Shown in pieces: positions 7,018 to 55,176 of a stretch of DNA of 64,000 nucleotides; position 1 is the stretch's first letter, and each line of letters begins with the position of its first letter. This DNA comes from a virus. A program made the translations under genes and the position numbers. The notes under the pieces are model-generated. The model searched no databases. It saw only the letters and a program-made list of their open reading frames with translations, and was not told where the DNA came from. The DNA lies in the IMG/VR virus record IMGVR_UViG_3300009509_000009, positions 1-64,000 of that record; one strand, given 5' to 3'.

Positions 7018-7025
7018 TATCCCTC

Positions 7026-8520: not shown

Positions 8521-9542
8521 TGTTGAAACCTCCTCCTGTTGGCTACTGTCTTTGCGAGCCCTTTGAGGTTTAGATCGTCGGGTTGCCGATGAAAGCTGCC
8601 CAACGTGCACACACTTACATCAAGTGACTTTGCCAGCCACTTCCCAAGTCGTCCAGTCGCTTTTCTCCCGGCTTCATCGTTATCTAAGAACAGCACGATC
8701 TCACTGCTCAATCGGCGCAGAAGATCGGCCTGAGTCTTTGTCATGCTGGACCCCATCACCGCAACCGTGTCACGGAAGCCATGCTGAATCATCCAGATGC
8801 AGGCCTTGTAACCCTCAACGATTATGATCGGCTTCTGCTCTGCGCTCTTGGAGCGTACGAGCGCCGGATACACTCTGTGTGCGTTCCACAGATGTTCACG
8901 GCTGTCTATCTTGTAGCCTGGGAAATTCTCGTCGAAGAGCTCCCCGAAGTCTCCAGGTCTCCACTGTCCCTGGCTATCGTAGGACCCTCCGCTATAGACC
9001 TTATACCGAGGCTCGACCCCCGGCTTCGTGGCCCTACCGGAGACGCCAACGAGGTTCCCGTAGACGTCTCTGATGGGGAACGTGATACGATCCTGTTTTT
9101 GGTCGTATCCTATGTCCATCGACCGAAGAAGACTGGTGTCGAAGCCCTTCTTCACCAGGCCGAGTGGCTTGTAATCGAAGACCCCAAGCAGGGACTCCGG
9201 CAGGATGCGGTCAGCCAGGAATGGGTTGCCAGTCTTGAAGCGATATCGAGCTTCCTGAATGACCCTGGCGCGATGCTTCTCGAGGTCTTCCCTCAGGGGG
9301 TCTACCAGGGCGTCGATCTTGTCTCGCCCCATGCCAACGCCCTTTAGGAAGTCTACCAGTCCGCCACGCAGACCACACGATCCAGAGTGACACACCCACA
9401 CTCCCGTCTCCGAGTTCATAGCAAAGCTGGGAGTGTGATCGTCATGGAATGGGCAGCGAGCCATGATCCACCTTGGTCCGCTGGACTTCAACTTCCTGAG
9501 GTAGGGCGAGACAATCTCGACGATGGGTCCCTGATCAAACAT
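8487..9542 (-). CDS. DnaG-type primase (CHC2 zinc finger plus TOPRIM)
   Basis: 351 residues, shorter than bacterial DnaG (~580) and lacking its helicase-binding domain. Zinc finger: C30-x2-H33 (ARCPFHDD) paired with C51 and C56 (VCHSGSC). TOPRIM core: IIIVEGYKACIW (catalytic Glu), VAVMGSSMT, then VLFLDNDEAGR (DxD-type motif). It makes RNA primers for lagging-strand synthesis. The start codon overlaps the end of the helicase gene and its end overlaps the start of the SSB candidate, so the three are translationally linked. Confidence 0.93.
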   Translation of the reverse strand: MFDQGPIVEIVSPYLRKLKSSGPRWIMARCPFHDDHTPSFAMNSETGVWVCHSGSCGLRGGLVDFLKGVGMGRDKIDALVDPLREDLEKHRARVIQEARYRFKTGNPFLADRILPESLLGVFDYKPLGLVKKGFDTSLLRSMDIGYDQKQDRITFPIRDVYGNLVGVSGRATKPGVEPRYKVYSGGSYDSQGQWRPGDFGELFDENFPGYKIDSREHLWNAHRVYPALVRSKSAEQKPIIIVEGYKACIWMIQHGFRDTVAVMGSSMTKTQADLLRRLSSEIVLFLDNDEAGRKATGRLGKWLAKSLDVSVCTLGSFHRQPDDLNLKGLAKTVANRRRFQQWVWMSSTKTR

Positions 9543-10962
9543 CTATGTCGAGCTCCTCGTCCAGCTCAGTGAGGAGCCTGTCGCTTATGCCAGCTGATTC
9601 TCTCGCCGGCTTCTTCTTGCTCTTCTTCTTGGTGGGCTGCTGAGTTTCTCCGAGAGCGGTTTGATCTCCGACGTTTCCTTCAGAGCCGCTGTCGTCGAAC
9701 TGCTGAATCCACCCATCCCATTCCCACATGATGCTGGGGATCACTCTTAGCCTGAAGCCCTCAGCCTTGATCTCACGAGCACCAGCTATGTAAACTGAGA
9801 GCTTGGTGTACCCACCTGGGTCCTCCCCGTGGTTCACCATACGCAGACCTAGATCTGTTTCTTGTCCGCTGGCATCTGTGTACGAGACGTCGCCCATGTC
9901 CGTCTCATCCTTCTCTCGATTGCGCTGCGTGATTCCGATCAGTGGTATCTTGCATTGCTGTGCGGCGTGCTTGAGGTCCTGGGTGATGGCGGCTTGGTCC
10001 TGCCACTTCATGGACCTCTGTCCGTTGCGATCGTTGCGCATACGATAGTAGGAGTCGACGAATACGATGTGGGGCTTGAACTGTTCTATCTTGGCCAGCA
10101 GATGATTCACACCTCCGCCAGAAGGGTCGTCCTTATCAGACGTGATCATGAATGATCTATGATGAGTGGATTCTCTATCATGCAACTCTTCCTTCTTCAG
10201 GTTGCGCATGCGCTTGACGAAGGGTTGCAGGACTTCCTTGGGTAGCTTAGCTCTACGCAGTAGATCGTAGTCGAGGCTGCACAGGGTCGCTACGACCCTA
10301 CGTCTGACCTGCTCTGGTGGCATCTCACAGCTGTAGAAGAGCACTCTCCGGTTGCCTACCTCATAGGCATGCGTGGCCATCTTGATCGCAAGCCACGACT
10401 TCATGCTCTTCATCCTGGCATAGATGAGGATGAACTCCTCAGGCAGCATGCCTTGTGTGACCGTATTCATCTGATCCCACGGCCATGGAACGCCGAGTAG
10501 TCCTCTGGCTTTCCGAGTTCGCTTGTAGTCCGCCAGGACTTCGTTGGTTGATTCAGCAAGGATGACATCCCTGCTGTGAGCCATGAACGATTGCGACTCT
10601 ATGAGATGCGTCCGCAGGGTATTGAGCGCTTCGTACGGCCCATCACCCTGCAGGACGCGAGAGGTCTCCTCGAGGCCCTCAGCTAGGACGCGCGACATCG
10701 CTTTCTGTCGGAGCGACTCGCAGAGCTCTGGAATAGTCTCCCTGCTCTTGAGGTACTCGAAGCTGGGGAAGTGTTCTCTCATCCACCTGCTGGTGGGAAC
10801 ACGTCCGAAGTGGGCGGGGTTCTTGTAGTACTCCCCGAGCGCTTTGAACATCTGCCTTGCGTCGGCAGACTTGAACATCCGGGGTTCGATTCGCTGGCGG
10901 ATGATCTCTGCGTAGTCACCCGAGCGAATGATCTTAGCTATGAGTCGATGCTCCAGATTCAT
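9535..10962 (-). CDS. DnaB-like replicative helicase
   Basis: 475 residues. The N-terminal helical domain (~1-130) starts like DnaB (EHRLIAKII...). The RecA-like core has EFILIYARMKSMKSW at the Walker A position: the conserved GxxxxGK[ST] reads A182-x4-M187-K188-S189, so both glycines are replaced while Lys and Ser remain. Walker B is HIVFVDSYYRM, and an ITQRNRE segment corresponds to the H3/H4 region. The C-terminus is basic (TKKKSKKKPAR) and then ends ELDEELDIDV, matching the SSB candidate tail. It unwinds DNA at the fork with the adjacent primase. Confidence 0.9.
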   Translation of the reverse strand: MNLEHRLIAKIIRSGDYAEIIRQRIEPRMFKSADARQMFKALGEYYKNPAHFGRVPTSRWMREHFPSFEYLKSRETIPELCESLRQKAMSRVLAEGLEETSRVLQGDGPYEALNTLRTHLIESQSFMAHSRDVILAESTNEVLADYKRTRKARGLLGVPWPWDQMNTVTQGMLPEEFILIYARMKSMKSWLAIKMATHAYEVGNRRVLFYSCEMPPEQVRRRVVATLCSLDYDLLRRAKLPKEVLQPFVKRMRNLKKEELHDRESTHHRSFMITSDKDDPSGGGVNHLLAKIEQFKPHIVFVDSYYRMRNDRNGQRSMKWQDQAAITQDLKHAAQQCKIPLIGITQRNREKDETDMGDVSYTDASGQETDLGLRMVNHGEDPGGYTKLSVYIAGAREIKAEGFRLRVIPSIMWEWDGWIQQFDDSGSEGNVGDQTALGETQQPTKKKSKKKPARESAGISDRLLTELDEELDIDV

Positions 10963-13272: not shown

Positions 13273-13703
13273 CAGTCCACCACGATCTCATTGGGCGCGT
13301 GCAACACACGGTTGGTCTCCTTGATCTCGAGCACAGCTCTCTGTGCGGTTCCGGCGTCGATCTCTCCAGCCTGAACCAGATGATCGAAGCCCTTGCTGTC
13401 CACCTTGAACTCGAGGGATACCACCGCCTGGCGGAGGTCCTTCCGATTCTTGAACCGCTTGTAGAGGTATTCACCGTCGAAGACCCGCTTCCGGCTGATG
13501 CTGACCTCCATCATGCCGACCTCGATACCAGTTTCACGTACGGCCCTCTTGACCTGATCGAGTGCGACGTTTCGTTCGTTGACGAACTGCACGAATTTCT
13601 CGAACACCTCCTCATGTTCGTTGCGGAACATGTCCAGCTTCTGCTGGGCCTTGTCGTACACCCCGTAGAGACGCTTGACTCTCTTCGCAGAGGGATCGCT
13701 CAT
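13272..13703 (-). CDS. Hypothetical helical protein
   Basis: 143 residues from ATG 13703 ([14 protein letters not shown]), which overlaps the stop of the uracil glycosylase gene and has GGAAGGAAG upstream; the longer frame to 13781 is rejected. A long helical region (YDKAQQKLDMFRNEHEEVFEKFVQFVNE) is followed by a beta-rich part. It weakly recalls Gam-type dsDNA-end proteins in its helix-then-strand layout, but I see nothing specific enough to call it. Confidence 0.6.
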   Translation of the reverse strand: MSDPSAKRVKRLYGVYDKAQQKLDMFRNEHEEVFEKFVQFVNERNVALDQVKRAVRETGIEVGMMEVSISRKRVFDGEYLYKRFKNRKDLRQAVVSLEFKVDSKGFDHLVQAGEIDAGTAQRAVLEIKETNRVLHAPNEIVVD

Positions 13704-14407
13704 TTCTTCTTCCTTCCGTAGCACTTCTCCGCCAGCCGCAACACACGTATGGCGAACTTGAAGTCTTCCTTGAACCACCATTTCCTCGAGTACACCGTCT
13801 CGGTTTCGTCCCTGAGAACGTAGGCCGGGTGCTGCATAGCGATCATCGGATACTCGATCATCTTGTAGATTCCTGGGACGCGAATGGTGAACACGTCTCC
13901 ACGGACCTTCACGATGGACAGTTGGTTATCCATCGTGAGCCCCTTCAGGGCAGTCCCACCCAGAGCTACGATCAGCCATGGGTCTACCAGTCGTATGGTC
14001 TCCCAGATGAAGTTTCTACAGTTGGTGACCTCCTTCGATGTTGGAGGCCTGTTGGCTGAGCGACCACCGTCAAGCTCCTTCAGCGGCTGGCACTTGACCA
14101 TGTTGTCTACCCACACCTCACTCCTATTCATTCCGGCCGCCATGATGAAGGCGTTGAGTAGATCGCCAGCGCGACCCACGAACGGAACACCGTCCATGTC
14201 CTCGTTCACTCCAGGTCCCTCACCTATGAACATGAGCTTGGCGTTTGGGTTGCCGGAGCCGAACACTAGGCGGCTCCTGCTATCCACCAAATTCTCGCAT
14301 TTCTCACAATCCTGCCAGAGCTTGGACAACGCGAGCGTCGCCAGCACTAGAGGTTCTGGGAACTGGAGAAACTTGTAGCGGAAGGTGTTGAACTCTACGC
14401 TGCTCAC
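13700..14407 (-). CDS. Uracil-DNA glycosylase, family 4/5-like (Fe-S)
   Basis: 235 residues. It removes uracil from DNA. Motif 1 is GEGPGVNED (~62-70; family 4 is GEAPGxxED) followed by [18 protein letters not shown] and [12 protein letters not shown] are typical of the Fe-S families, and motif 3 is HPAYVLR. Cysteines at ~34 and 37 plus the two later ones give four ligands for a 4Fe-4S cluster. It is coupled by ATGA overlaps on both sides. In a phage it may support repair or exclude uracil from phage DNA; a role in damaging uracil-containing competitor DNA is only speculation. Confidence 0.88.
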
Positions 14408-20720: not shown

Positions 20721-22604
20721 ATGTTTGATTTCAACAGAGCACCAGCTACTCGCCCAACCATGGCCCCCGGCCGTATTCAGGGTGGCCAACGGCTCCAAGG
20801 TGTGAACTACCCGAGCCCGTTCTTCGATGTCGCTCATACGTACCTGCCAACAACCATCAAGCAGATGTTTCGGTGGTGCAGGTATTACTACCTCACCAAT
20901 CCGTTGATCGCCGCAACCGTCAACAAGATGGCGGAGTACCCGATCACTGACATCTTGGTGGACGAGGACAACAAGGGGCTGAAGCAGAAGTGGGAGGACT
21001 TCTTCGAGGACACTCTTCAGCTACGCCCATTCCTGATCGAGGCTGGTCTGTTCTACATGACCTACGGCAATGCCATGATCTCGATCAGCCATCCGTTCAT
21101 CAAGTGGCTCACATGCAAGCATTGTGGCCACAAAGTCCAGGCCAGGAAAGCTCGGTTCCAGTTCAGAGAAACGAAGTTCTTCCTGCACTGTGATCACTGC
21201 GGCACGAGCGGTGACGCCGTAGCCTTTGACCAGTACCTCAGGACTCCTCATAAGCTGAAGCTCATCCTGTGGAATCCCGAGGACATCGAGATCAGATACA
21301 ACGAGCTGACTGGGGAGACCACGTACTACTACACAGTCCCCCAGAAAACCAAGAACGAGATCACTCTGGGCAAGCGAGATGTGGTAACCACAGTCCCGCA
21401 GGTGTTCATCGACTCGGTGAAGTCCCGCAAGGCTGTAATCATTTCGCCTGACAACATCTTCCATCTCAGACGCCCGTCCATACTGACTGGCAAGAGAGAT
21501 AGAGGATGGGGTATCCCGATCATCCTTCCTGTTCTGAAGGACGTCTTCTACCTGCAGCTGATGAAGAAGGCCCAGGAGGCTATCCTACTCGAGCGCATCG
21601 TTCCTCTCACAGTGCTGTTCCCACAGCCTGGATCTGGTACATCAGACCCATTCCAGATGGTGAATCTGCAGGACTGGAAGAACCAGGTCGTCAAGGAGAT
21701 CCAGCGTTGGAGGATTGATAGGAACTACATTCCGGTCATGCCGCTGCCACTGGGCAACCAGGTTGTCGGTGGGGACGGTAGAGCTCTGCTACTCAGCCAA
21801 GAGATCAAGATCTGGAGTGATCACATCATCTCTGGAATGGGAGTGCCCAACGAGTTTGTCTTTGGTGGTCTGCAGTGGTCTGGGTCGAACGTGTCTCTCC
21901 GGATGCTCGAGAACCAGTTCATGCGGTACGTGCAGGACCTTGGAAGATTCCTCCGTATCTTCCTGGTGCCCAAGATCGCTGCGTACCTCGACTGGCCCAA
22001 GGTCAACGTCAGGTTCAAGCCGTTCAAGATGGCTGATGATCTACAGCGCAAGGCTCTGTACATGCAGCTCAACCAAGCTGGTAAGCTCAGCGATACGACA
22101 CTGCTCAACGACTGCGACTTCAATCCCGAGGATGAGGACGAGCTCATGGCCACTGAGACGGAGCGTCGTCTCGAGGCTGTCAAGAAGCAACAGCTCGCTG
22201 AGGCTGAGATCCAGGGAGAGATGGGTGTCATCCAAGCCAGGTACCAAGCCAAGGCTCAGCAAGTCATTGCTGAGGAGCAGGAGCAGATGGCCCGAGGCAC
22301 GCAGGGCACAGCTCAGGGTGAGCCTGGTGCGGAGATGGGAGGAGGCCCGGCTACAGCTCCGGAGCAGCAACCCGCTCCTCCTTCAGGAGCTCCACCTCCT
22401 CAGATGATGCCTCAGATCATTCAGAGGATGAGAGCCATGAGCCCGGACGCCCAGGTAGGTCTTCTGAAACAGATCGCTCAGAGGAATCCGGAGATGGCTA
22501 TGCAGATCGCCGAGGCACTCCAGCCAGGCGAAGAGATGACGCGCGGTGAGCCGCTGCCCGAGACTCTTCCTCCGAGGAGAGACGCGGCCAGCGCTCTGAT
22601 ATAG
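20721..22604 (+). CDS. Portal protein with inserted zinc ribbon
   Basis: 627 residues, in the usual size range. Portal features include the clip/wing-like opening, then LMKKAQEAILLERIVP, and the stem region SGMGVPNEFVFGG followed by WSGSNVSLRMLENQF, which matches phage portal signatures (G-x-P-x-x-x-F-G...S-N-x-x-x-x). Unusual: C132-x2-C135 (TCKHCG) and C157-x2-C160 (HCDHCG) form a zinc ribbon inserted early in the chain. The C-terminal ~110 residues are Gln/Pro/Glu-rich and low-complexity. It forms the dodecameric DNA channel at the capsid vertex. Confidence 0.87.
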   Translation: MFDFNRAPATRPTMAPGRIQGGQRLQGVNYPSPFFDVAHTYLPTTIKQMFRWCRYYYLTNPLIAATVNKMAEYPITDILVDEDNKGLKQKWEDFFEDTLQLRPFLIEAGLFYMTYGNAMISISHPFIKWLTCKHCGHKVQARKARFQFRETKFFLHCDHCGTSGDAVAFDQYLRTPHKLKLILWNPEDIEIRYNELTGETTYYYTVPQKTKNEITLGKRDVVTTVPQVFIDSVKSRKAVIISPDNIFHLRRPSILTGKRDRGWGIPIILPVLKDVFYLQLMKKAQEAILLERIVPLTVLFPQPGSGTSDPFQMVNLQDWKNQVVKEIQRWRIDRNYIPVMPLPLGNQVVGGDGRALLLSQEIKIWSDHIISGMGVPNEFVFGGLQWSGSNVSLRMLENQFMRYVQDLGRFLRIFLVPKIAAYLDWPKVNVRFKPFKMADDLQRKALYMQLNQAGKLSDTTLLNDCDFNPEDEDELMATETERRLEAVKKQQLAEAEIQGEMGVIQARYQAKAQQVIAEEQEQMARGTQGTAQGEPGAEMGGGPATAPEQQPAPPSGAPPPQMMPQIIQRMRAMSPDAQVGLLKQIAQRNPEMAMQIAEALQPGEEMTRGEPLPETLPPRRDAASALI

Positions 22605-22673: not shown

Positions 22674-22769
22674 CTACCGTTGTCGACTGGCCGTCTCTTT
22701 GACGACGAGGTAGTGGGTCACCCGGGCAAGGTAGGTGCCCACTGCAGCCAGGATGAAAAGCTCAACCAT
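22674..22769 (-). CDS. 31-residue single-pass membrane peptide
   Basis: Tiny ORF with ATG 22769 and a strong AGGAGG six to seven bases upstream, lying within the end of the previous small gene (8-nt overlap with it). The N-terminal half (VELFILAAVGTYLA) is a short hydrophobic membrane segment and the C-terminal half is basic. Product unknown; holin-like or membrane-signal peptides are possible, but size alone cannot decide. It was found by reading the gap 22605-23030. Confidence 0.5.
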   Translation of the reverse strand: MVELFILAAVGTYLARVTHYLVVKETASRQR

Positions 22770-22899
22770 CGTCGTCCTCCTCTTCATCGTCGTCTTGGCG
22801 ATCGTCCTGTTGTTCTTGAGCTGGTTGGCTCTGAGAACTCATGGCTAGAAGATCGTTCTCGAGGGCTGCGAAGAAATCCGGCTTGTTCCACTCTCCCAT
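22762..22899 (-). CDS. 45-residue acidic small protein
   Basis: ATG 22899 with AAGGGG upstream, preceded ~60 nt upstream by the ATAAG core of the minus-strand promoter-like motif. An amphipathic N-terminal helix (MGEWNKPDFFAALENDLLAM) is followed by a Gln stretch and an Asp/Glu tail. The tail resembles the acidic tails of the replication proteins. Small acidic phage peptides often act on host enzymes; here that is only a guess. Together with the next ORF it forms a two-gene reverse-strand unit inside the structural cluster. Confidence 0.55.
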   Translation of the reverse strand: MGEWNKPDFFAALENDLLAMSSQSQPAQEQQDDRQDDDEEEDDDG

Positions 22900-22951: not shown

Positions 22952-22972
22952 CAAAGCTCTTATAACCACTAG
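22952..22972 (-). promoter_or_regulatory. Minus-strand promoter-like motif, small-gene pair
   Basis: Minus-strand reading TAGTGGTTATAAGAGCTTTG fits G[TG]NATAAG[AC]NCNNTG. It lies ~55-60 nt before the ATG at 22899. The plus-strand RNA polymerase gene begins 58 nt to the right in the opposite direction, so this gap is divergent. Confidence 0.65.
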
Positions 22973-23030: not shown

Positions 23031-26000
23031 ATGGCCCGGCTAGACCCTAGAGAGGGGTTCGAGCTCCTCAAAGACAGGGTGACTACCGAGGTGAAGGCTG
23101 CGTTCCCCCAGGAGGGGAACGATCACATTCTCGACATCGAGAATGTGGAGATCCAGGACGAGCTGGACCCCGAGGATATTGAGGGTCAGAAGAAAGCGAA
23201 GCTCGGTGGATCAACCTGGGGAGTCCCCGTGAAAGCAGAGTTCGTCTTGAAGGACAAGGCGAGCGGCAAGGTCATCAACCGAAGTAAGATCAAGGTGGCG
23301 ACGATCCCGAAGCATACTCGTCGTCATTCCTTCATAGTCGGTGGATCTGAGTACCAGGTGGACAACCAGTGGCGGTTGAAGCCCGGTATCTACACACGTG
23401 TCGCGCAGAACGGTCAGCTCGAGTCACGGTTCAACTTCCAGGGCAAGATGAACCTCGATATGATCTTCGACCCCAAGAGCAGGAAGTTTCAGCTCAAGCA
23501 CGGTGGGTCGAAGCCGCCGCTCTATCCAATACTCAAGGCGGTTGGCGTTGACGACGACGCGCTACAGCAGGCGTGGGGCAAAGAGATCCTCAACGCCAAC
23601 AAGACAACGCCGAATGGAAAGGCGCTGAACGTAGAGAAGCTAGCGATCGGTTTCGCCAAGAGACTCGATCCAAACAAAGACGTCAAGAACTTCGACGACG
23701 CTGGAGATGTCATTCGTGAATACATGGGTACGGCGGAGCTCAGACCCGACGTGACCAAGCTCACGCTAGGCAAGGAGTTCAATACCATCACGCCTGAAGC
23801 ACTCACGAGGACGTCGGGTAGACTTCTTGGTGTAGCTAGAGGCGACAAGCCAGACGTGCGGGATGCTCTGCAGTTCAAAGATCTTCTCAGCACGGAGGAC
23901 TTCATCGCTGAGCGTCTTCAGCAAAGCGCCAAGATCATCAAGCGCAGGATACAGAACAACATAGATCGAAGGACCACCGTTCGTGAGATCGTGGGGCCAG
24001 ACATTTTCGATCGACCCGTCAAAGAGTTCTTCTCGAAGACGTCGCTGGCGAATACACCTCAGCAGGTCAATCCACTCGAGATGTTGTCCGGCCAGCAGCG
24101 TACCACTATCACTGGAGAGGGTGGAGTCAAGAGCGCACACAAGATCCAAGAGGACGCAAAGCTAGTAGATCCGTCACACTTCGGTGTGCTCGACCCACTA
24201 CACACTCCGGAGTCCGACAAGACAGGAGTGACACTACACCTTGCCATGAGCGCCGTGAAGAAGGGCAACAAGGCCTTCGTCCCACTGCACAATGTCAAGA
24301 CTGGAAAGGTAGAGTATCTCGATCCAGAGACGGTCAATGAGAAGATCGTGGCAATGCCGGATGAGGGTAGGTGGGACAAGGGTAAGTGGGTGCCCAACGC
24401 GAAGAAGGTCAAGGCGAGTACGCTGGGCAATGAGATTCGAGACGTCGACTCCTCCAAGGTCCAGTACGTCATGAAGAATCCTGGTCAGATGTTCTCTCTC
24501 GCCACCAACATGGTTCCGTTCCTCTCCTGCGACTCCCCGAATAGATCATCCATGGCTGGGAAGCAGATGGAGCAGGCGATCTCGCTGAAGTATAGAGAGC
24601 CGCCTCTAGTTCAGGTAGCGCGAGGAGACGGGACCAAGAAGACCTTCGACGAGTTCGTCGGGCGATATGCCTCTCATGAATCCCCAGTTGATGGGAAGGT
24701 GACCAACATCACTGACACGTTCATGGAGGTCAAGTCGGGGCGCAAGACACACAAGGTCCAGCTGTACAAGGACTATCCCCTCAATGACAAGAAGGGTCTT
24801 CTCCAGAGTACCCCTACGGTGAAGGTAGGGGACAAGGTGATGAAAGGGCAGACTGTAGCCGATACCAACTTCACAAAGGGCGGAGTCTACGCGCCTGGAG
24901 TGAACCTCAACATCGGGTACACGCCGTGGAAGGGCTACAACTTCGAGGACGGTGTGGTGATCTCTGAGTCTGCTGCGAAGAAGCTGACTTCAGAGCACAT
25001 GCACAAGAAGACCCTGTCCACAAAGGAGGCGAAAGCTCCCGGCAAGGAAGTCTTCATGTCCCACTTTGCCAGCAGTCTGGACAAGGAGCAGGCAGAGAAG
25101 CTGGACAGAGACGGCATCATCAAGCCGGGCATGAGGATCAGAAAGGGCGACACTCTCATCGCTGCAGTGGCCGACGCCCCGCCCACTACTGAGAATCAGA
25201 TGTTCAAGAATCTCCACCGATCATTGGTGCAGCCATTCGACAACCGATCTATCACCTGGGAAGAAGACCAGGAGGGTGAAGTCGTCAATGTCACCAAGAA
25301 GGGGAAGAAGATCCAGGTTCACGTCAAGACTGAAGAGCCGATGACTGTTGGCGACAAGATGGTTGGGCGCCACGGCAATAAGGGAATCGTCACCAAGATC
25401 TTGCCAGACAACGAGATGCCGTCGACCAAAGATGGCAAGCCCCTCGAGGTGCTGATGAATCCAATCGGTATTGCTGGTCGGATGAACATCGGTCAGGTGC
25501 TTGAGACAGCAGCCTCTAAGGTAGCTGAGAAGCGCGGACGCCCGCTCAAGATCACAAACTTTGGAGTCAGTGATAGCCGCACGGAGATCGAGAATCTGCT
25601 GAAGCGGCATGGAGTATCAGATCGAGAGACCATTGTAGATCCAAAAGACGGGACGGAGATAGAGGGCATCCAGGTTGGAAAGCAGTACATCCTCAAGCTC
25701 CAACACCAAGTAGATAAGAAGATGTCTGCTCGAGACAGAGCTGGCTACGATCGTAACTTGATCCCAAAGGGCGGCGGGAAGCACGGTGCTCAGGCGCTAG
25801 GAGCTCTCGGCATGTACGCCATGTTAGCTCACGGGGCTAAGCACAACATCCGTGAGATGCAGACCTACAAGTCTGATAAGGCGCAGAACGACGATCTTTG
25901 GAGCGCCATTCAGACTGGTGAGCCACTGCCTCCTCCGAAGACTACCTTCGGGTATCAGAAGTTCGAGTCCTACCTCAAGGGAATGGGCGTCGACACGCAG

Positions 26001-29000
26001 AAGGATGGGAACTCCCTGAATCTCATACCACTGACTGACAAGCAGGTGGAGGAGATGTCTTCTGGGGAACTCAAGGATGCGGGGCGGGCTGTTCGAGGGT
26101 ACAAGATTGGATCGAAGCGCAGAGGCTCAATAGATCCTGAGAAGTCTGGTCTATTCGATCCGCAGATCACCGGGGGCTTGGATGGCACCAGGTGGTCTCA
26201 CATCAACCTAGCAGAGCCAGTGCCAAATCCACTCTTCGAGAAAGCAGTCCGTAGTCTCACCGGGATTCGTGGACCTCAGTTCAATCGTCTGATCGAAGGC
26301 AAGGACGGCGTCGATAAAGACGGAAAGATAGTTCCTCCGGGTACTCAGGGAGCTCTCTACGGTCCTCAGTCCATTGGTCTCATGCTGGATAAGGTAGACA
26401 TCAACAAGGACCTGCAGGCCGCGCAAGCGAAGCTCCCAACCATCAAGAATCGTCAGCCACTGAATGAGACACGCCGAAAGATCAAGTACCTGCAGGCCCT
26501 GCAGAAGGTTGGCCTGTCCCCTCGTGAAGCGTACATGACCTCGAAGGTTCCAGTTCTTCCTCCAGCGATGAGGCCTCTATCAATGCTCGAGGACGGAGCT
26601 CTGCAGTTCGATGATCTCAACCAGCTCTACAAGGACGTGGCCCTACTTGATCAGCAGATCAAGGAGATGCCCAGCTTCGCGCCAGACAGCGCGAAGGCAG
26701 AGGCTAGGGCTGACGTATACGATCGGATGAAGGCCCTAACTGGTCTTGGTGGCTCCCTCAAGGGAAGGTACAAGGGGATAGCCGACATCATAGCCGGAGA
26801 CAATCCGAAAAGTGGTTACGCCCAGGACAAGCTGATCAAGAGGAAGATGGACCTGTCCATGAGGTCCACTATCGTGCCCGAGCCTTCATTGTCCTTGGAC
26901 GAAGTAGCCATTCCTCGCAAGGCAGCTATGGAGATCTACAAGCCCTTCATCGTCAGGGAGCTCCGTATGTCCACGGGTTCCGGACCTCTCACTGCCAAGG
27001 AGATGGTGGAGGCCAATCACCCGGCTGCTCGGGAGGCCCTGAACCGAGTGGTTGAGGAGCGACCCCTCCTCATGAAGCGCGACCCAGTACTCCACAAGTA
27101 CGGCATTCAGGCCTTCAAGCCTAAGATCGTAGAGGGCAAGGCCATCAAGATACACCCCCTTGTGTGCTCCGGATTCAACGCAGACTTCGACGGGGACACC
27201 ATGAGCGCCACAGTACCCATCACCGAGGAGGCTGTGGATGAAGCCCGAAAGATGTTTCCGTCGAAGATGCTGTTCAATCCAGCCACCAAGGGAGTCATGT
27301 ACACGCCGGCCCATGAAGCTCAGGTTGGTCTCTACATGATGACGGACGTAAAGAAGAAAACGAACTACCAGTTCAAAGATCAAGCCGCCCTCGAGCGCGC
27401 AGTGAAAGAGAAGAAGCTGGGTCCTAATGATGCTGCCAAAGTAGGCGGGAACTTCACAACACTAGATCGGTTGAGGCTCAACGCCACCCTGCCAACACAA
27501 CTGCAGGGAGGAAAGCTGCTCACTGATCTAGACTACCGCTTTACCAAGAAGGACCAGGGTCAGTTCTTCAAGCAGATGGCAGAGACGGACGAGAAGGGTT
27601 TCCCGATCAACATAGATAAGATGAAGGACGTGGGAAACCTGAAGGTCACTCATGGAGGGTTCAGCTTCGGGCTCAGTGACTTCAAAGTACACAAGGACAT
27701 TCGAGATCCGATCATGCGTGAGGCGGATAGGAGAGCGTCAGCTCTGGATTTGTCCAAGAAGAACGACATGAACAAGTTCGTCGACATCTATGAAGGTGCG
27801 ATGACCAAGATGAAGGATCGGCTGGATGTCAGAGTCAAGGAGCTCAGCACAAAGAACTCTTTGGCAATGCTCGAGACGGCAGCTGGGATCAAGGGTAAAG
27901 GGTACGCCCAGCTCACCACAGCTCCAGGTCTGTTCGTTGACGCAAAGGGAGAGGTAGTCGCCAGTCCAGTGAGGAAGTCGTACTCTGAGGGTCTCTCCGC
28001 TTCTGACTACTGGGCGTCAGTGAGCGGTGGACGCAAAGGAATCATCCAGCGAACGCAGTCTACAGCCAAGCCAGGCTATCTCACCAAGCTCATGATGAAC
28101 TCGGTGATGGACACCTTGGTGCAGGAGGACGACTGCGGTACCGATCGTGGGGTCAGTCTCAACATAGATGAACCAGACCTTATCGGTAGGTACACTACGG
28201 CCCCAATAAAGATCGGAAGCACGACGTTCAAGCCAGGAACTCTGGTCACTGCTGACATCGTCAACAAGGCCAAGAATGCTAAGGTCACCAGGATCGTTAG
28301 CCGATCTCCGATGCGTTGCAATCACGCACACGGCGTATGCGCGAAGTGCATGGGGCTCAACGAGAGAGGAGAGCACCACGGGCTCGGAACCAACATCGGC
28401 GTGCTGGCTGCCCAGGCTATCGGAGAGCGCGGAACCCAGCTCGCTATGAAGGCGTTCCACTCAGGCGGGGTGTACGAGGGTAAAGCCGCGCAGGAGAGGT
28501 CGATCACTGGTGGTGGGTTCGAGCGCGCCGTCACTCTGCTCTCCATGCCGAAGCAAGTGAAGGGATCTGCCAAGCTGGCTATCGCTTCTGGTAAGGTAGA
28601 GGCGGTGAAGAAAGATCCAGCGGGTGGGTTCGATGTGAAGATAGGCGGCGTCAAGCACTACATTCCTGCTGATCGTACACCGCTACCCGATCTGAAGAAG
28701 GGTAAGGCTTTCCGAAAAGGTGATCCTCTGACTAAGGGTCCTATCAATCCGAGGGAGCTGCTTCCTCTTACCAACATGAACAAGGTCCAGGGATACCTGG
28801 CTTCGGAGCTACACAGTCTCTATGCCCCAGAAGGAATCAGACGTAGAAACTCCGAGGTCCTCGTCAGGTCACTATCCAACGTCACCAAGGTCGAGGACTC
28901 TGGAGATAGCTCGTCGTGGATCAGGGGAGACTTTGCTCCGACTGCTGTAGTCAACGAGTGGAATCGTAAGAACGCCAAGCGCGGGCTGAAACCTGTACAG

Positions 29001-29213
29001 CACACGCCAGTTCTTCGTGGGGTCAAGACTATCCCCGAAGATGTGCAGACAGATTGGCTAGCCCGATTGAATCATGAGAACATCAGGTCTACCCTAGTAG
29101 AAGCGGCACAACAGGGTTGGGCGAGTAATCTTCACGGTGATCACCCAATCCCGCCGATGATCGTGGGTAAGGAGTTCGGCAAGGGAACAAAGGATAAGCC
29201 CTGGTCGTACTAA
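23031..29213 (+). CDS. Single-chain multisubunit RNA polymerase (beta fused to beta-prime)
   Basis: 2060 residues. The first ~970 follow bacterial RpoB: IVGGSEYQVDNQWRLKPGIYTR (~105), MVPFLSCDSPNRSSMAG (~494, Rif-region equivalent), GYNFEDGVVISE (~634), VGDKMVGRHGNKGIV with both active-site lysines (~774), and RMNIGQVLET. The rest follows RpoC: DGTRWSHINLAEPVPNPLF (~1047), LKGRYKGIADIIAGD, PVLHKYGIQAFKP, NADFDGD with the three Mg-binding Asp (~1382), a trigger-loop/bridge region ending SGGRKGIIQRTQSTAKPGYLTK (~1665), the second zinc site DDCG...RCNHAHGVCAKC, and GVLAAQAIGERGTQLAMKAFHSGG. The beta-prime N-terminal zinc finger is absent. No stop or frameshift separates the halves. No alpha, omega or sigma gene is in the window. 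It is co-directional and tightly spaced with virion genes (11 nt to the next), so packaging in the particle is plausible. Confidence 0.97.
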   Translation: MARLDPREGFELLKDRVTTEVKAAFPQEGNDHILDIENVEIQDELDPEDIEGQKKAKLGGSTWGVPVKAEFVLKDKASGKVINRSKIKVATIPKHTRRHSFIVGGSEYQVDNQWRLKPGIYTRVAQNGQLESRFNFQGKMNLDMIFDPKSRKFQLKHGGSKPPLYPILKAVGVDDDALQQAWGKEILNANKTTPNGKALNVEKLAIGFAKRLDPNKDVKNFDDAGDVIREYMGTAELRPDVTKLTLGKEFNTITPEALTRTSGRLLGVARGDKPDVRDALQFKDLLSTEDFIAERLQQSAKIIKRRIQNNIDRRTTVREIVGPDIFDRPVKEFFSKTSLANTPQQVNPLEMLSGQQRTTITGEGGVKSAHKIQEDAKLVDPSHFGVLDPLHTPESDKTGVTLHLAMSAVKKGNKAFVPLHNVKTGKVEYLDPETVNEKIVAMPDEGRWDKGKWVPNAKKVKASTLGNEIRDVDSSKVQYVMKNPGQMFSLATNMVPFLSCDSPNRSSMAGKQMEQAISLKYREPPLVQVARGDGTKKTFDEFVGRYASHESPVDGKVTNITDTFMEVKSGRKTHKVQLYKDYPLNDKKGLLQSTPTVKVGDKVMKGQTVADTNFTKGGVYAPGVNLNIGYTPWKGYNFEDGVVISESAAKKLTSEHMHKKTLSTKEAKAPGKEVFMSHFASSLDKEQAEKLDRDGIIKPGMRIRKGDTLIAAVADAPPTTENQMFKNLHRSLVQPFDNRSITWEEDQEGEVVNVTKKGKKIQVHVKTEEPMTVGDKMVGRHGNKGIVTKILPDNEMPSTKDGKPLEVLMNPIGIAGRMNIGQVLETAASKVAEKRGRPLKITNFGVSDSRTEIENLLKRHGVSDRETIVDPKDGTEIEGIQVGKQYILKLQHQVDKKMSARDRAGYDRNLIPKGGGKHGAQALGALGMYAMLAHGAKHNIREMQTYKSDKAQNDDLWSAIQTGEPLPPPKTTFGYQKFESYLKGMGVDTQKDGNSLNLIPLTDKQVEEMSSGELKDAGRAVRGYKIGSKRRGSIDPEKSGLFDPQITGGLDGTRWSHINLAEPVPNPLFEKAVRSLTGIRGPQFNRLIEGKDGVDKDGKIVPPGTQGALYGPQSIGLMLDKVDINKDLQAAQAKLPTIKNRQPLNETRRKIKYLQALQKVGLSPREAYMTSKVPVLPPAMRPLSMLEDGALQFDDLNQLYKDVALLDQQIKEMPSFAPDSAKAEARADVYDRMKALTGLGGSLKGRYKGIADIIAGDNPKSGYAQDKLIKRKMDLSMRSTIVPEPSLSLDEVAIPRKAAMEIYKPFIVRELRMSTGSGPLTAKEMVEANHPAAREALNRVVEERPLLMKRDPVLHKYGIQAFKPKIVEGKAIKIHPLVCSGFNADFDGDTMSATVPITEEAVDEARKMFPSKMLFNPATKGVMYTPAHEAQVGLYMMTDVKKKTNYQFKDQAALERAVKEKKLGPNDAAKVGGNFTTLDRLRLNATLPTQLQGGKLLTDLDYRFTKKDQGQFFKQMAETDEKGFPINIDKMKDVGNLKVTHGGFSFGLSDFKVHKDIRDPIMREADRRASALDLSKKNDMNKFVDIYEGAMTKMKDRLDVRVKELSTKNSLAMLETAAGIKGKGYAQLTTAPGLFVDAKGEVVASPVRKSYSEGLSASDYWASVSGGRKGIIQRTQSTAKPGYLTKLMMNSVMDTLVQEDDCGTDRGVSLNIDEPDLIGRYTTAPIKIGSTTFKPGTLVTADIVNKAKNAKVTRIVSRSPMRCNHAHGVCAKCMGLNERGEHHGLGTNIGVLAAQAIGERGTQLAMKAFHSGGVYEGKAAQERSITGGGFERAVTLLSMPKQVKGSAKLAIASGKVEAVKKDPAGGFDVKIGGVKHYIPADRTPLPDLKKGKAFRKGDPLTKGPINPRELLPLTNMNKVQGYLASELHSLYAPEGIRRRNSEVLVRSLSNVTKVEDSGDSSSWIRGDFAPTAVVNEWNRKNAKRGLKPVQHTPVLRGVKTIPEDVQTDWLARLNHENIRSTLVEAAQQGWASNLHGDHPIPPMIVGKEFGKGTKDKPWSY

Positions 29214-29223
29214 GGAGACTGTC

Positions 29224-29616
29224 ATGGATGATCAACTGTACAAGGAAGCCATGTACTCTGGATTCTTCGACGAGCTCGGACTGCTCGAGAAGCAACAGAT
29301 GTTCGAGAAGCAGGCTGCGGGTCTTGGTACCTTAGTCAAGGGCTTCCGTCAGCTGGGCAAGGATCCGACGAAGGCCCTCGGTGGTGTTCGTAGAGCCTGG
29401 GAGGTCGGTGTTCGTAGAGGAGCTGGTCTGGGTAGAGGACAGGCTGGGCCTCTCCAGGGAGGCGTGGCGAACAGACTCCGCCAGGCGTGGGGTGGCGTGA
29501 AGAACGTCGCCAAGACACCGGCGGGCCAAGCTATTGGAGCTACGGCGCTGGGCGCCGGAGCGCTGGGCGCCGGGGCCGTGGGAACTGGGTACGCTGCTGG
29601 CCGTGCTCAGGGTTAG
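29224..29616 (+). CDS. K-x-A tagged small virion protein
   Basis: 130 residues, ATG with AAGGAGACTG upstream. N-terminal region: YKEAM, GFFDELGLLEKQQMFEKQAAG, i.e. the D-E-L...E-K-x-A tag. The middle is basic and Gly-rich. The C-terminus is a hydrophobic glycine-zipper (GQAIGATALGAGALGAGAVG). It has the same architecture as the other tagged proteins, in miniature. Role unknown; internal virion protein inferred. Confidence 0.65.
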   Translation: MDDQLYKEAMYSGFFDELGLLEKQQMFEKQAAGLGTLVKGFRQLGKDPTKALGGVRRAWEVGVRRGAGLGRGQAGPLQGGVANRLRQAWGGVKNVAKTPAGQAIGATALGAGALGAGAVGTGYAAGRAQG

Positions 29617-29626
29617 TGAGTCCTGA

Positions 29627-30799
29627 GTGCCACGAGCTCAAGCAAACTCGATCGCTCAGAGCGGTCTGAATACTCCCAGCATTGAGGAGGGCCGTATCGT
29701 CAACGTCGACATGGCCAACTTTACTGCTGACGTGAAAACAAAGACCAGCCAGAGACAGTTGATCGACGTACAGTGGTCCAGCCCTTACATGCACTTCGCC
29801 AAGGGTGAGGGGATCAACTTCATGCCAGAGGTGGGGGCGATCTGTAAGGTCTGTATGCCGAGTGACGGTACCCCGTTCATCATGTGCTTTGTCACTACCT
29901 TCGAGCGCGAGCGACCAGCCGATGGTCAGGACTCTGAAACGACTCTGCATCCTGACAGCACCGAGAGTCAGGAGTCTCCTGCTGAGGTTACGTTCCGATC
30001 TGGCAGAGCCAAGATGGAACAGGGTGACATACACCTCAGTACCAGAGACGGCAACGCTCTGTGGCTGCACAGGGGAGGTGTAGTCGAGCTCGGAGCGAAC
30101 GGTATAACGAAACGGTTCTACATCCCACTACTCAACACGATCCGTGATGTCTGCGAGAACTATGATATGGTCTCGCTGGCAGGAGAGATGAGCTGGACAG
30201 TCTCCAGGGATGACAGGAACGCTTCTGGTGATGCTGAGGCCGCGTTCACGCTTGCTTCGAGGAACTTTGCTCAGGATGAATTCGCCACGGTCTTCCTCCG
30301 AGTTGGGCACGTTGACGATACCAAGAGGTTCCAGCTCCTCATCGCTCCGAACCGCATCAACCCCAGGACTGGAGAGGTCGACGGGGATGTAGTCTACTCA
30401 GTGGAGATCGATGAAGAGGGAAACCTCGACGTCACCGTCAAGAAGAAGGCTACGATCAATATTCAAGACGAGCTGGCTCTCACTGTGAGCGGGGACGCCA
30501 ACCTCACGTTCAGCTCAAATCTCAACGAGACGATCAGCGGTGACAGGGATACCCAGATCTCAGGGAACCACTCTATGCAGGCTACCGGCAGCACAGAGAG
30601 GCTGTCAGCGGACAAGACAATCGACGCTCCAAGGATCAAGCTCGGTGGTAGCGCCATGTATCCGGTGTTGATCATGAGCCCAGCTACCGTCTCATTCCTG
30701 ATGGGGCATACCCATCCGGTCACTGGTGCTGCTACTGGCCCGCCTGTTGCGACGACCAGCCCCAACATGATGACCGCTAGAAAGACGGTGGCTGAGTAA
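29627..30799 (+). CDS. Baseplate spike/hub protein (gp5/gpV-like)
   Basis: 390 residues from GTG 29627. The N-terminal OB-like domain (EGRIVNVDMANFTADVKTK...IDVQWSSPYMHF...MPEVGAICKVCMPSDG) is as in phage spike proteins. The C-terminal part has many short beta repeats (LTVSGDANLTFSSNLNETISG, TQISGNHSMQATGS), typical of a triple-stranded beta-helix spike. It ends with the membrane-piercing signature GHTHPVTGAATGPP. It would sit at the tail tip. The ribosome site is weak. The following gene starts in the TAATG stop. Confidence 0.8.
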   Translation: MPRAQANSIAQSGLNTPSIEEGRIVNVDMANFTADVKTKTSQRQLIDVQWSSPYMHFAKGEGINFMPEVGAICKVCMPSDGTPFIMCFVTTFERERPADGQDSETTLHPDSTESQESPAEVTFRSGRAKMEQGDIHLSTRDGNALWLHRGGVVELGANGITKRFYIPLLNTIRDVCENYDMVSLAGEMSWTVSRDDRNASGDAEAAFTLASRNFAQDEFATVFLRVGHVDDTKRFQLLIAPNRINPRTGEVDGDVVYSVEIDEEGNLDVTVKKKATINIQDELALTVSGDANLTFSSNLNETISGDRDTQISGNHSMQATGSTERLSADKTIDAPRIKLGGSAMYPVLIMSPATVSFLMGHTHPVTGAATGPPVATTSPNMMTARKTVAE

Positions 30800-34444: not shown

Positions 34445-34852
34445 CTATTTATCTGACCCCTGGTCAGCTGGCTTCTTCCGCTTCCACTTCTTCCGCTTCT
34501 TGTACGGAGCGAGTGATAGTAGGAATCCGTCTCGATCCATCATCATGTGTACTACTCGCTGCTGGCCGGAGCTTCGAGCTTCCGCCACGATGACGTTGTA
34601 GATGAGTTTGGCTGACTCTTTGTCTGATCCCAGAGGGAGGGGCATGCTCACCCTGACGAGGTCAAGTTCCACCGGTCCGAACTCGATTTCGTGTGCAAGG
34701 CAGCAATACCCTCGATCGGTATCGGCCACACCGATCTCTCCCTCCATAACGAAGCTGAGCCGTTTGAGCGCTACCTTGAGCCACTCAGGGCTGGCTGGTT
34801 TGCTCTGCTGGTTCAACGGCTTCCTGGTCTGCTTCCTTCTCGATGGAGCCAC
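34445..34852 (-). CDS. Hypothetical basic-tailed protein
   Basis: 135 residues from GTG 34852, overlapping the end of the upstream gene by 68 nt; an internal TTG or ATG start is possible. Basic N- and C-termini (SRRKQTRKP; YKKRKKWKRKK) flank an alpha/beta core (EFGPVELDLVRVSMPLPLG...AKLIYNVIVAEARSSG). Nucleic acid binding is possible. Unrecognised. Confidence 0.5.
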   Translation of the reverse strand: MAPSRRKQTRKPLNQQSKPASPEWLKVALKRLSFVMEGEIGVADTDRGYCCLAHEIEFGPVELDLVRVSMPLPLGSDKESAKLIYNVIVAEARSSGQQRVVHMMMDRDGFLLSLAPYKKRKKWKRKKPADQGSDK

Positions 34853-35504
34853 ACTCGTGAAGGATCATGCGGTCTCGGGTAGCCTTGTCGAGATGATTGA
34901 CGATCGGGATATCATCCTCGTTCTTCCTCACCTCTATCCACCCGAGAGAGGGCGCCAGAACGCTCTTGACCGCGCTGTCTACTGCAGCGCGTAGATCGTT
35001 GATGGTAACGCTGACTGCCGTGGCGACACCCTTGATGGGGGTGTGACCCTCGAACTTGCCGTCGTCGCCCTCGAACCTGATGAAGCGACTGCCGAAGTCA
35101 CCGGGGTTCTCGGTGAGGTCGAAGTCTGCCTCTTTCTTGTTCGGGCCAATGATCAGGCCGTTGCGATTGTCACCGTCCAACCACACAGTGATGTCTACCA
35201 GCTCGCCAGCCTTCTTGCGAGCTGACTTCAGGATGGTAAGTTTTGGCAGCACACCGGTGAACTCCTGCGCCGCGCCCAACCTCGCCTGCAGCATGGTGCT
35301 CTCCATGCTGTTCAGACGCCTCTTACGTCCGACCACTCCTCCCTTCGCGCGCTTCTCCGGCGGTACCCCCGCCATCAAGCTGTCTCCAAGCACATCCCGT
35401 GGGAGGTACTTGTCCATTTCCCTCAGCTCATCCTTGGTGTATCCCATGGATGTTGCGAGGGGCTCCAATTGAGCCAATGTGTACTTGACCTTCTTCTTGC
35501 CCAT
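34785..35504 (-). CDS. Hypothetical 239-residue protein upstream of terminase
   Basis: ATG 35504 with AGGAGG upstream and the ATAAG core of a minus-strand promoter-like motif ~47 nt upstream. A charged N-terminus (KKKVKYTLAQLEPL) is followed by a beta-rich middle (VDITVWLDGDNRNGLIIG...ADFDLTE), then a helix and an acidic Glu/Gln/Pro tail. No family recognised. Confidence 0.6.
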   Translation of the reverse strand: MGKKKVKYTLAQLEPLATSMGYTKDELREMDKYLPRDVLGDSLMAGVPPEKRAKGGVVGRKRRLNSMESTMLQARLGAAQEFTGVLPKLTILKSARKKAGELVDITVWLDGDNRNGLIIGPNKKEADFDLTENPGDFGSRFIRFEGDDGKFEGHTPIKGVATAVSVTINDLRAAVDSAVKSVLAPSLGWIEVRKNEDDIPIVNHLDKATRDRMILHECGSIEKEADQEAVEPAEQTSQP

Positions 35505-35542: not shown

Positions 35543-35561
35543 CAAAGAGCTTATAACCAGG
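35543..35561 (-). promoter_or_regulatory. Minus-strand promoter-like motif upstream of 35504
   Basis: Minus-strand reading CCTGGTTATAAGCTCTTTG, nearly identical to the site at 22952 over 13 bases. It lies in the 78-nt divergent gap between the 239-residue gene and the large terminase gene. Confidence 0.65.
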
Positions 35562-35582: not shown

Positions 35583-37376
35583 ATGTCAGCCATTCTAGAA
35601 GATGTTAGGACTCCCAGGATCGAGCCACGGTTCGACTTGGACCTTGAAGACGAGCTCATTGATAGCTTCATTGATCCTGATGAAGAAGCTGAGATGGCCG
35701 AGCTTGACGCTATCATAGATGGCGTTGCTTACAAGCCTCCTGAGAGTCAGCTACCAGAGATCACTCCCTCTGAATTTACAGAGTTCGCCATCAGGATACC
35801 GGTGAAGGGTGACCTCGAGAGGTTCAGCTTCGAGGGCCGTGAGTACCTGCGTGAGATCTATGACACACCAGCTCGCCGCATACTCATGAAGTGTGGGCGT
35901 CAGACAGAGAAGTCTACCACTCTGGGGAACAAGTGCCTGGCGTACTGTGGGATCAACGGCAACTTCAATGTGCTGTACGTCAGCGCAACTGCCCAGCAAG
36001 CTCAGGTCTTTTCGGTAGACCGGATCAAGAACGTGATCGAGACCTCACCAGAGTTCGCTCATCTGGTCGACAGGAAGCTCCAGCAGAACGTTCTCTTCAA
36101 GCAGTTCAAAAACAGATCCAACATCAGAATCAGGTACGCCTTCCTGTCTGCAGACCGCGTTCGTGGTATTCCAGCAGACAAGATCTTGATCGATGAGATC
36201 CAGGACATCATCACCGATAACATACCAGTCATTGAGGCATGCGCCTTCCACTCTGACTGGAAGATCTTCTGCTACTCAGGCACTCCAAAGAGTCTGGATA
36301 ATACGATCGAGGTATACTGGGCGGACTTCAGCACGCAGAACGAGTGGGTAGTTCCGTGCGAGGCCTGTGGCGGTACCAGCCGTCGTAAGGACACCTGGCA
36401 CTGGAACATTCTCGGATCAAGGAACATCGGTAAGAAAGGTCTGGTGTGCGCCAAGTGCAAGAGATCGATCAACCCGAGACACCCAGACGCGCAGTGGTCA
36501 TCCAGGCAGCCAATAACGAAGGAAAATAGGAACCGAGTATCATTCGAGGGCTATCGAATTCCTCAGCTGATGGTACCGTGGGTAGACTGGGAAGAGGTAC
36601 TGTCTGCTCGTGAGCGATTCTCCACAGCTCAGTTCAACAACGAGGTCCTCGGACTGTCATACGATTCTGGCGTACGACCGCTCACAAGGGCACAGATCAA
36701 GTCGTGTTGCAAGGAAGAGATACACTTCACTGACCTAGAAGAGAATGCCCGCAAGTGCCACGGTGGAGTGTTCGCTGGTATCGACTGGGGTACTGGGGAG
36801 AATACCTACACAGTCATCTCACTTGGCGGTTACATGGGAGGATCGTTCCAGATATTCTTCTGCCACCGCTTCACTGGTGACGATCTTGAACCCAGAATGC
36901 AGCTGGATAAGATCGCCAAGCTGCTTCACGCAGTGAGGTTCAGGTGCTGTGGTGCTGACTACGGCGGAGGCTTCGACAAGAACGATTGGCTGATGAGAAA
37001 CTTCGGCCCAACAAAGTTCGTCAAGTTTCAGTACGCTCCGAACCCGAGTAAGAAGATCTACTGGCAGCCGAAGCTCGGCCGCTACATCGCCCACCGCACC
37101 GAGATCATGAGCGACATTTTCAACGCTCTCAAGCGTAAGCAGATCTGGCTGCCCAACTGGGAGGAGTTTGTCACTCCGCATGGAGAGGACATCCTCAACA
37201 TCTTCAGTGAGTGGAACGCCCAGCTCAGAATGCTGCAGTACAAGGTTAGCCCAGGGAAGACAGACGACACCTTCCACTCGATTCTATACTGCATGCTTGC
37301 CTCTATGATCGGCGGGAAGATGAGACCAGATATTCTGGTTCCAGTTCGTGAGGGCGACGTCCTGTTTCATGGTTAG
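35583..37376 (+). CDS. Terminase large subunit
   Basis: 597 residues. The ATPase is evident from the degenerate Walker A G105-R-Q-T-E-K110-S-T (Glu where Gly is usual), Walker B ILIDE (201-205) and the coupling-motif region CYSGTP. The C-terminal RNase H-like nuclease begins at GGVFAGIDWGTGENTYTVIS (motif I Asp) with further acidic residues (ADYGGG). Between the two lies a zinc ribbon: CEACGG...CAKCK. No obvious ribosome site precedes the ATG, so expression may be low or leader-dependent. It is isolated from the portal (which is at 20.7 kb) and flanked by minus-strand genes. It packages DNA through the portal. Confidence 0.93.
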   Translation: MSAILEDVRTPRIEPRFDLDLEDELIDSFIDPDEEAEMAELDAIIDGVAYKPPESQLPEITPSEFTEFAIRIPVKGDLERFSFEGREYLREIYDTPARRILMKCGRQTEKSTTLGNKCLAYCGINGNFNVLYVSATAQQAQVFSVDRIKNVIETSPEFAHLVDRKLQQNVLFKQFKNRSNIRIRYAFLSADRVRGIPADKILIDEIQDIITDNIPVIEACAFHSDWKIFCYSGTPKSLDNTIEVYWADFSTQNEWVVPCEACGGTSRRKDTWHWNILGSRNIGKKGLVCAKCKRSINPRHPDAQWSSRQPITKENRNRVSFEGYRIPQLMVPWVDWEEVLSARERFSTAQFNNEVLGLSYDSGVRPLTRAQIKSCCKEEIHFTDLEENARKCHGGVFAGIDWGTGENTYTVISLGGYMGGSFQIFFCHRFTGDDLEPRMQLDKIAKLLHAVRFRCCGADYGGGFDKNDWLMRNFGPTKFVKFQYAPNPSKKIYWQPKLGRYIAHRTEIMSDIFNALKRKQIWLPNWEEFVTPHGEDILNIFSEWNAQLRMLQYKVSPGKTDDTFHSILYCMLASMIGGKMRPDILVPVREGDVLFHG

Positions 37377-55166: not shown

Positions 55167-55176
55167 GAGAGGACCA

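Follow-up and report, generated by a model that had tools for sequence, protein, structure and literature searches.

Can a tailed phage build a bacterial-type RNA polymerase (RNAP) from one polypeptide, and which genes would such an enzyme serve? The question is raised by the viral stretch analysed here, the window, which comprises 64,000 nucleotides (positions 1 to 64,000) of the IMG/VR virus record IMGVR_UViG_3300009509_000009, whose whole length is 79,665 bp. On the plus strand, one open reading frame (ORF) of 2060 amino acids occupies positions 23031-29213. It starts with ATG, immediately 3' of an AGGAG Shine-Dalgarno sequence (read on the reverse strand), and continues without an internal stop. 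Its product was assigned from the open frame, Pfam, PDB sequence searches, AlphaFold2 models with a fold search, and homologues. All methods concur on a complete bacterial-type RpoB (beta) followed by an RpoC (beta-prime) minus its first zinc finger (Zn1). Judged from sequence and predicted structure, it is very probably an active phage RNAP in a single chain, with phage genes as its templates.

The beta part corresponds to residues ~1-990 (23031-26000) in the alignment with E. coli RpoB. A junction of ~15 residues (26001-26036), unbroken in homologues, connects it with the beta-prime part at residues ~1003-2060 (26037-29210), which was delimited by alignments and conservation counts; aligned similarity to beta-prime begins at residue ~1003. 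The Pfam domains follow the bacterial order, with Rpb2_3 (344-408), Rpb2_6 (571-906, E=9e-61) and a weak Rpb2_7 (919-952) on the RpoB side, and then a weak Rpb1_1 (1146-1213), Rpb1_2 (1272-1408, E=2e-27) and Rpb1_5 (1654-1833, E=5e-21) on the RpoC side. In the PDB sequence searches, a family profile of the first half matched bacterial beta across residues 13-987 (E=6e-147), and residues 1111-2053 matched bacterial beta-prime (E=2.5e-105). AlphaFold models of the two halves showed a mean predicted local distance difference test (pLDDT) of 85.5 and 83.8, and the fold search paired them with bacterial beta and beta-prime chains of solved structure (query TM-scores ~0.71-0.79). The initial annotation had described RpoB and then RpoC landmarks in bacterial order in one frame; its coordinates proved exact, and the profile and structural comparisons that it had suggested for the two halves agree with it. 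When aligned with E. coli, the window RNAP is without the large lineage-specific insertions and the Zn1 region, and the bridge-helix region is present.

Residue conservation was counted over 64 phage sequences and 13 bacteria and is given in E. coli numbering. The catalytic GDKMVGRHGNKG, with the GDKM..RHGNKG motif, is located at residues 774-785 of the window RNAP (nt 25350-25385) inside the beta part, and NADFDGD at residues 1383-1389 (nt 27177-27197) inside the beta-prime part. Beta K1065, K1073, R678, D814 and R1106 are invariant in 64/64 phage sequences. Beta-prime D460, D462 and the trigger-loop H936 are also found in all 64, and D464 in 63. The alignment therefore upholds the earlier claim that the active-site lysines and NADFDGD are intact, both lysines being universal in the family. 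The claim that the N-terminal zinc finger of beta-prime is lost and the second one (Zn2) kept is likewise correct: the Zn1 cysteines (C70, C72, C85, C88) are deleted in every phage sequence and present in 13/13 bacteria, and the Zn2 cysteines are found at residues 1702, 1763, 1770 and 1773 of the window beta-prime part, with the trigger-loop motif at 1801-1813. In the rifampicin pocket, H526 is His in 0/64 phage sequences and S531 is Thr in 64/64, whereas 13/13 bacteria retain H and S. Because H526 is never His and S531 always Thr, the phage enzyme is predicted to be insensitive to rifampicin. At the clamp helix, R275 is replaced throughout and E295 in the majority of members, and its promoter recognition therefore probably differs from ordinary sigma70 docking.

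The window fusion is not an isolated oddity, as it might have been taken to be at first, and belongs to a large family. A scan of IMG/VR with the window RNAP protein identified 63 related loci, mostly full-length fusions, and two profile scans identified at least 549 and at least 530 relatives with architectures of any kind. The best 80 of the at least 549 relatives all have the single-chain architecture, as far as contig ends permit. The overall count of fusions that are distinct, full-length and encoded by a single ORF is at least 113. Contigs carrying the fusion RNAP reach 210 kb, and its carriers form a large group of bacterial viruses, most of them uncultured. The junction is intact in 125 distinct ORFs of the fused clade and in 23 of the Arash clade described below, and in none of the homologous loci examined does an ORF stop at the boundary between beta and beta-prime. 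A frameshift or assembly artefact, including the hidden stop between the halves that the initial annotation had named as fatal to its claim, is excluded by the at least 113 single-ORF homologues and the lack of any break at the boundary. A scan of bacterial genomes with the window RNAP found no relative; a second bacterial scan gave ordinary bacterial rpoC loci, which were taken as tree outgroups. Four loci labelled as phage (L155, L156, L157 and L158; e.g. OR844998, OR846602, CAKLQH02) have ordinary separate rpoB and rpoC and look like bacterial contigs.

Several of the fusions are 2.5-3.6 thousand codons long and contain in-frame inserts at GDKM/RHGNKG, at NADFDGD or near residue 395. Inserts of ~340-510 amino acids at catalytic motifs were observed in the RNAP ORFs L063, L054, L123, L047, L029, L036 and L041, and the L123 ORF, with its in-frame insert, has 3596 amino acids. 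LAGLIDADG domains were recognised in all three insert-bearing RNAPs scanned, and an intein-splicing domain in one of them. In-frame inteins at catalytic motifs are expected of a required, active protein.

How the single chain arose can be read from its relatives in cultured phages, Salmonella phage Arash and Vibrio phages D69, D148 and D181. They have the same beta/beta-prime junction, carry the RNAP after the portal gene and are ~32-36% identical to the window RNAP. In the Arash type, however, the first chain consists of beta through NADFDGD (window residues ~15-1472), and the remaining beta-prime is a separate gene. The cuts in the Arash clade (contigs L161-L187) are at ~1474, after NADFDGD, in others also at ~1100, and in L171 at ~500; the beta/beta-prime join itself is never cut. 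The maximum-likelihood tree, made up of phages and 14 bacteria, gives an ultrafast bootstrap (UFBoot) support of 100 to the fused clade, to the Arash clade and to the two combined, and the stem of the phage clade is 1.44 substitutions per site. FastTree recovered the same groups, with a support of 0.79 for the fused clade. The fused and Arash clades are sisters. Because the Arash clade retains the junction and yet is cut within beta-prime, the simplest history, an unusually clear one, would be that the ancestor shared by both clades acquired the fusion once and that the Arash line was later cut at other points. A homing endonuclease is annotated beneath the RNAP match in D148 and D181, a hint at the origin of the cuts.

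One chain supplies both halves of the active centre. In the mechanism that we propose, a single fusion of beta and beta-prime would have taken place in the stem of this lineage of large phages with contractile tails, so that both double-psi barrels of the active site would come from one polypeptide. This chain is predicted to fold and work without alpha. No match to alpha (PF01000) and, above the cut-off, none to omega (PF01192) was detected in any of 37 related phage records, and positive controls were detected for both. Because these genes are absent from the related records, the fusion RNAP probably assembles without alpha or omega; host subunits could still be borrowed. Apart from Zn1, alpha and omega, nearly everything is retained in the family's single chain, which can be aligned with the E. 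coli enzyme over its full length. The family thus represents a naturally minimal RNAP of the bacterial type and could become an expression tool that needs a single gene. The initial annotation had seen no alpha, omega or sigma nearby. This stands for alpha and omega but only in part for sigma, as sigma-like genes are found in some relatives, although none was found in the partial 79.7-kb genome of the window. A conserved Arash-type sigma is present in 7/7 Arash-clade genomes, and the fused genomes have only one unrelated sigma. The Arash-type sigma was rejected as a shared promoter factor since it is confined to the Arash clade.

What the enzyme may read is suggested by a promoter-like element with the consensus AA-N16-G[GT]TATAAG-N5-TG. 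It was derived from 45 aligned sites, in which AA lies 18 nt upstream and TG 5 nt downstream. Model-free word counts of intergenic DNA surfaced GGTATAAG twice independently, once in G008, a genome of the fused clade, and once in Arash. When the strands were counted separately, genes opposite to the RNAP strand proved to be preceded by GGTATAAG in G001 and Arash and by GTTATAAG in D69. In 39 phage records, the pattern GGTATAAG-N5-TG was matched 163 times and a reversed-pattern control 5 times; two phages with other RNAPs have 0 and 1 matches. By hand count, 134 of 162 copies are on the strand opposite to the RNAP and 28 on the same strand. Copies on the opposite strand lie 20-90 nt before a same-strand start in 17 of 30 cases in Arash (6% for random positions) and in 12 of 28 cases in G001 (4% for random positions). 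The placement is less clear in G008, where 0/5 opposite-strand and 3/8 same-strand copies precede starts. Just before the RNAP gene, the element faces away from it in 46 of 120 unique upstream regions (15/1122 control windows) and faces it in none of the 120. In the window, GTTATAAG is found at 22959-22966 on the minus strand, with TG at 22953-22952, facing away ~65 bp before the RNAP start, as identified by the consensus and from the sequence itself. A second GTTATAAG-N5-TG from the site list is at 35550-35557 on the minus strand, 46 nt upstream of the minus-strand ORF 34785-35504 (239 amino acids, within the structural block, no Pfam match), and a promoter-like element is placed at 9000-9007 on the minus strand.

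In most fused loci, the element before the RNAP is followed by two tiny minus-strand ORFs between portal and RNAP, one encoding an acidic peptide of ~30-60 amino acids and the other a probable membrane peptide of ~30-40. The window pair, read from the sequence, is a 45-residue acidic peptide (MGEWNKPDFFAALENDLLAM...DDDEEEDDDG) at 22762-22899 and a 31-residue probable single-transmembrane peptide at 22674-22769; both have equivalents in most fused loci. The pair was not seen in the Arash clade. The acidic peptide is a possible polymerase partner. A non-coding RNA was considered for this gap because the stretch past the promoter is without long ORFs, and it was rejected: Rfam gave nothing near gathering scores, and the gap holds two small translated-looking ORFs.

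Which genes are served, and when, is the point on which two readings compete. In N4, phiKZ-like and crAss-like phages, a virion RNAP starts transcription of injected DNA. The window RNAP would be made together with the virion proteins and would transcribe phage rather than host genes. In the preferred version of our proposal, it would be carried into the next cell and would there read the opposite-strand non-structural genes from AA-N16-G[GT]TATAAG-N5-TG. That the enzyme is packaged in the virion and reads opposite-strand genes on entry has about an even chance, and that a packaged RNAP starts transcription of the injected DNA without the host enzyme is a similarly balanced prospect, leaning slightly against; the latter possibility had been raised by the initial annotation. 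The RNAP is invariably beside portal and baseplate genes, and throughout the family it is in the virion block next to the portal, so the initial annotation was right to place it in a virion gene block. The order portal, RNAP, gp5-like gene, two more genes and terminase large subunit is kept across the fused clade at 39-62% identity, and the portal-RNAP adjacency extends to the Arash clade. An all-in-one chain would be convenient to eject and refold. Moreover, the promoter-like element is on the non-structural strand and the polymerase gene on the structural strand, and the replaced rifampicin-pocket residues are also consistent with packaging. The fuller proposal, that a widespread lineage packages an alpha-free single-chain RNAP which reads its own promoter class at entry, including the divergent mini-operon, is tentative and, with all its parts taken together, somewhat improbable. 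If it holds, it would add a further, structurally conventional solution for virion transcription to the N4 and phiKZ/crAss types.

Several points weigh against the packaged enzyme or against our interpretation as a whole. The Arash-clade enzyme is split into two or three chains, a position in the virion block does not prove packaging, and no targeting motif common to the virion proteins could be recognised in the RNAP. GTTATAAG-N5-TG occurs just twice in the window, beside some partial matches, and no exact copy of the element was found in the fused genomes G014, G015, G021, G023 and G028. E. coli R933 in the trigger loop is replaced by lysine in the window RNAP and varies across the phage family, and catalysis may therefore differ. 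The record covers 79.7 kb of an incomplete genome, which leaves room for a sigma or accessory subunit in the remainder. Finally, the fusion RNAP may be restricted to late genes, and the reader of the element may be the host RNAP together with another factor.

The last two points together make up the second reading, which is quite possible but falls somewhat short of even probability: the RNAP would be a late, non-packaged enzyme that reads only the structural strand from other promoters, and the host RNAP, perhaps with a phage factor, would read G[GT]TATAAG. The polymerase gene is indeed on the structural strand. The element has the geometry of a sigma-type promoter with a start at G, and its likeness to an extended -10 (TG-N-TATAA) makes reading by the host RNAP conceivable. 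In D69 (L288-L297), a second element, TAAAATATA, occurs 17 times on the structural strand and 2 times on the other, with many copies close before genes, and resembles a T4 late promoter. However, no structural-strand element was found in G001, G008, G014, G020 and Arash. Furthermore, the last base of the hexamer is G, whereas sigma70 prefers T, and TTGACA is absent upstream. The final G is part of the searched pattern, yet it also emerged from the unsupervised word count. The element is common to both of the deeply separated phage clades and to phages of very different GC content, and this points to a phage-encoded reader, for which the fusion RNAP is the obvious shared candidate. Thanks to the cultured relatives and the predicted promoter, packaging, promoter recognition and rifampicin insensitivity are directly testable.

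A non-functional relic or a purely structural protein is very unlikely, as the catalytic residues are invariant over 38-60% divergence, inteins are held in frame at active-site motifs, and full-length frames persist in at least 113 distinct homologues. Least probable is a host rpoBC fusion captured recently, or a contig of bacterial origin taken for phage: the bacterial-type domain order and the clear similarity to bacterial chains would fit it, but the long stem, the phage-only clade with UFBoot 100, the universal loss of Zn1, the portal, terminase, capsid and tail sheath genes on the same record and the at least 113 homologues in the same phage context speak against it.

How does the enzyme compare with known RNAPs? 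The bacterial rpoB-rpoC fusions of Helicobacter, Wolinella and Wolbachia are joined end to end, from beta to beta-prime in the same order, and work in the cell with alpha, omega and sigma. Phage RNAPs of the multisubunit type are usually too divergent for easy comparison with the cellular enzyme. The nearest published counterpart is a deep phage RNAP lineage, the multi-subunit RNAP-encoding Caudovirales (mReC) of Weinheimer and Aylward 2020 (PMC7481178). These are likewise metagenomic tailed phages whose RNAP can be aligned with bacterial beta and beta-prime, keeps NADFDGD, forms a deep phage-only clade and is encoded near virion hallmark genes. The features by which mReC enzymes are recognised, matches to beta and beta-prime, at least 800 amino acids and NADxDGD, were all found in one window protein as judged with Pfam models, and a phage-only RNAP clade apart from cells was recovered here with UFBoot 100 against 14 bacteria. 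The mReC paper names beta and beta-prime subunits and mentions a fusion for crAssphage only (PMC7481178). Its capsids matched PF07068 and its terminases PF03237 (PMC7481178), a reported trait rather than a strict definition. Unlike these, the window capsid has no Pfam match, and the terminase matches PF05876 (E=1e-14), with PF03237 at E=0.006, below the cut-off. Compared by description only, the fused family likely overlaps with mReC, and probably many of the mReC enzymes belong to it. RNAP1 of rep_vMAG_21, a hydrothermal mat virus, is a viral gene that was described as RNAP beta and beta prime and placed basally in the mReC clade (PMC10159854); it was reported for diversifying selection, and the fusion was not discussed there, again as compared by description only. 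The deep lineage is thus already published, and the single-chain enzyme is undescribed in the texts of PMC7481178 and PMC10159854. Our literature search, which covered few subscription journals and no preprint servers, found no paper on a phage beta-beta-prime fusion of this type.

The crAss-like gp66-type RNAP of tailed phages also has both active-site barrels in one chain. However, it has no recognisable similarity to the COG0085/COG0086 models (PMC7481178), whereas the window RNAP is recognised by Pfam at E=9e-61, so the crAss-like enzyme is the far more divergent of the two from cellular RNAP, as had been stated at the outset. The phiKZ-type RNAP cores consist of four or five chains in two sets (PMC7598289). 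In contrast, the window RNAP is one chain, and one locus per genome was found with this query, which a very divergent second RNAP would escape. Membership in the phiKZ or crAss RNAP families was rejected on these grounds.

The surroundings of the RNAP divide by strand. The replication genes, all assigned by Pfam, are on the minus strand, opposite to the RNAP: RecA-like (3287-4537), family A DNA polymerase (4987-7164), primase (8487-9542), DnaB-like (9535-10962) and uracil-DNA glycosylase (13700-14407). The structural genes are on the plus strand with the RNAP. The portal protein (20721-22604; PHROG 64, E=1.5e-6) is the 5' neighbour in the fused and Arash clades, as supported by synteny. On the 3' side, a small protein of 130 amino acids (29224-29616), conserved in the closest relatives (homologues in L004, L005, L028 and L063), is followed by the conserved gp5-like baseplate hub or tail lysozyme-type protein (29627-30799; PHROG 9992 and 430, a weak Gp5_trimer_C match, and synteny). 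The terminase large subunit is at 35583-37376 (PHROG 675, E=4e-58; GpA_ATPase PF05876) and the major capsid protein at 46094-47218 (PHROG 2522, E=8e-13). Small proteins of the virion block (window 29224, 43740 and 53857; L274 in G008) have a recurring N-terminal F-x-DEL-x-KIA-like motif. It occurs 6 times in the window record (0.55 expected), once in G008 (1.25 expected) and 3 times in Arash (1.0 expected), and it is not present at the RNAP N-termini. With an enrichment that differs in this way between genomes, it was rejected as a virion-targeting signal. The tail sheath candidate of a contractile tail (55150-58602, 1150 amino acids; PHROG 279, E=1e-7) matches the sheath family just in its last ~220 residues (928-1149), and its N-terminal part is unusually large.

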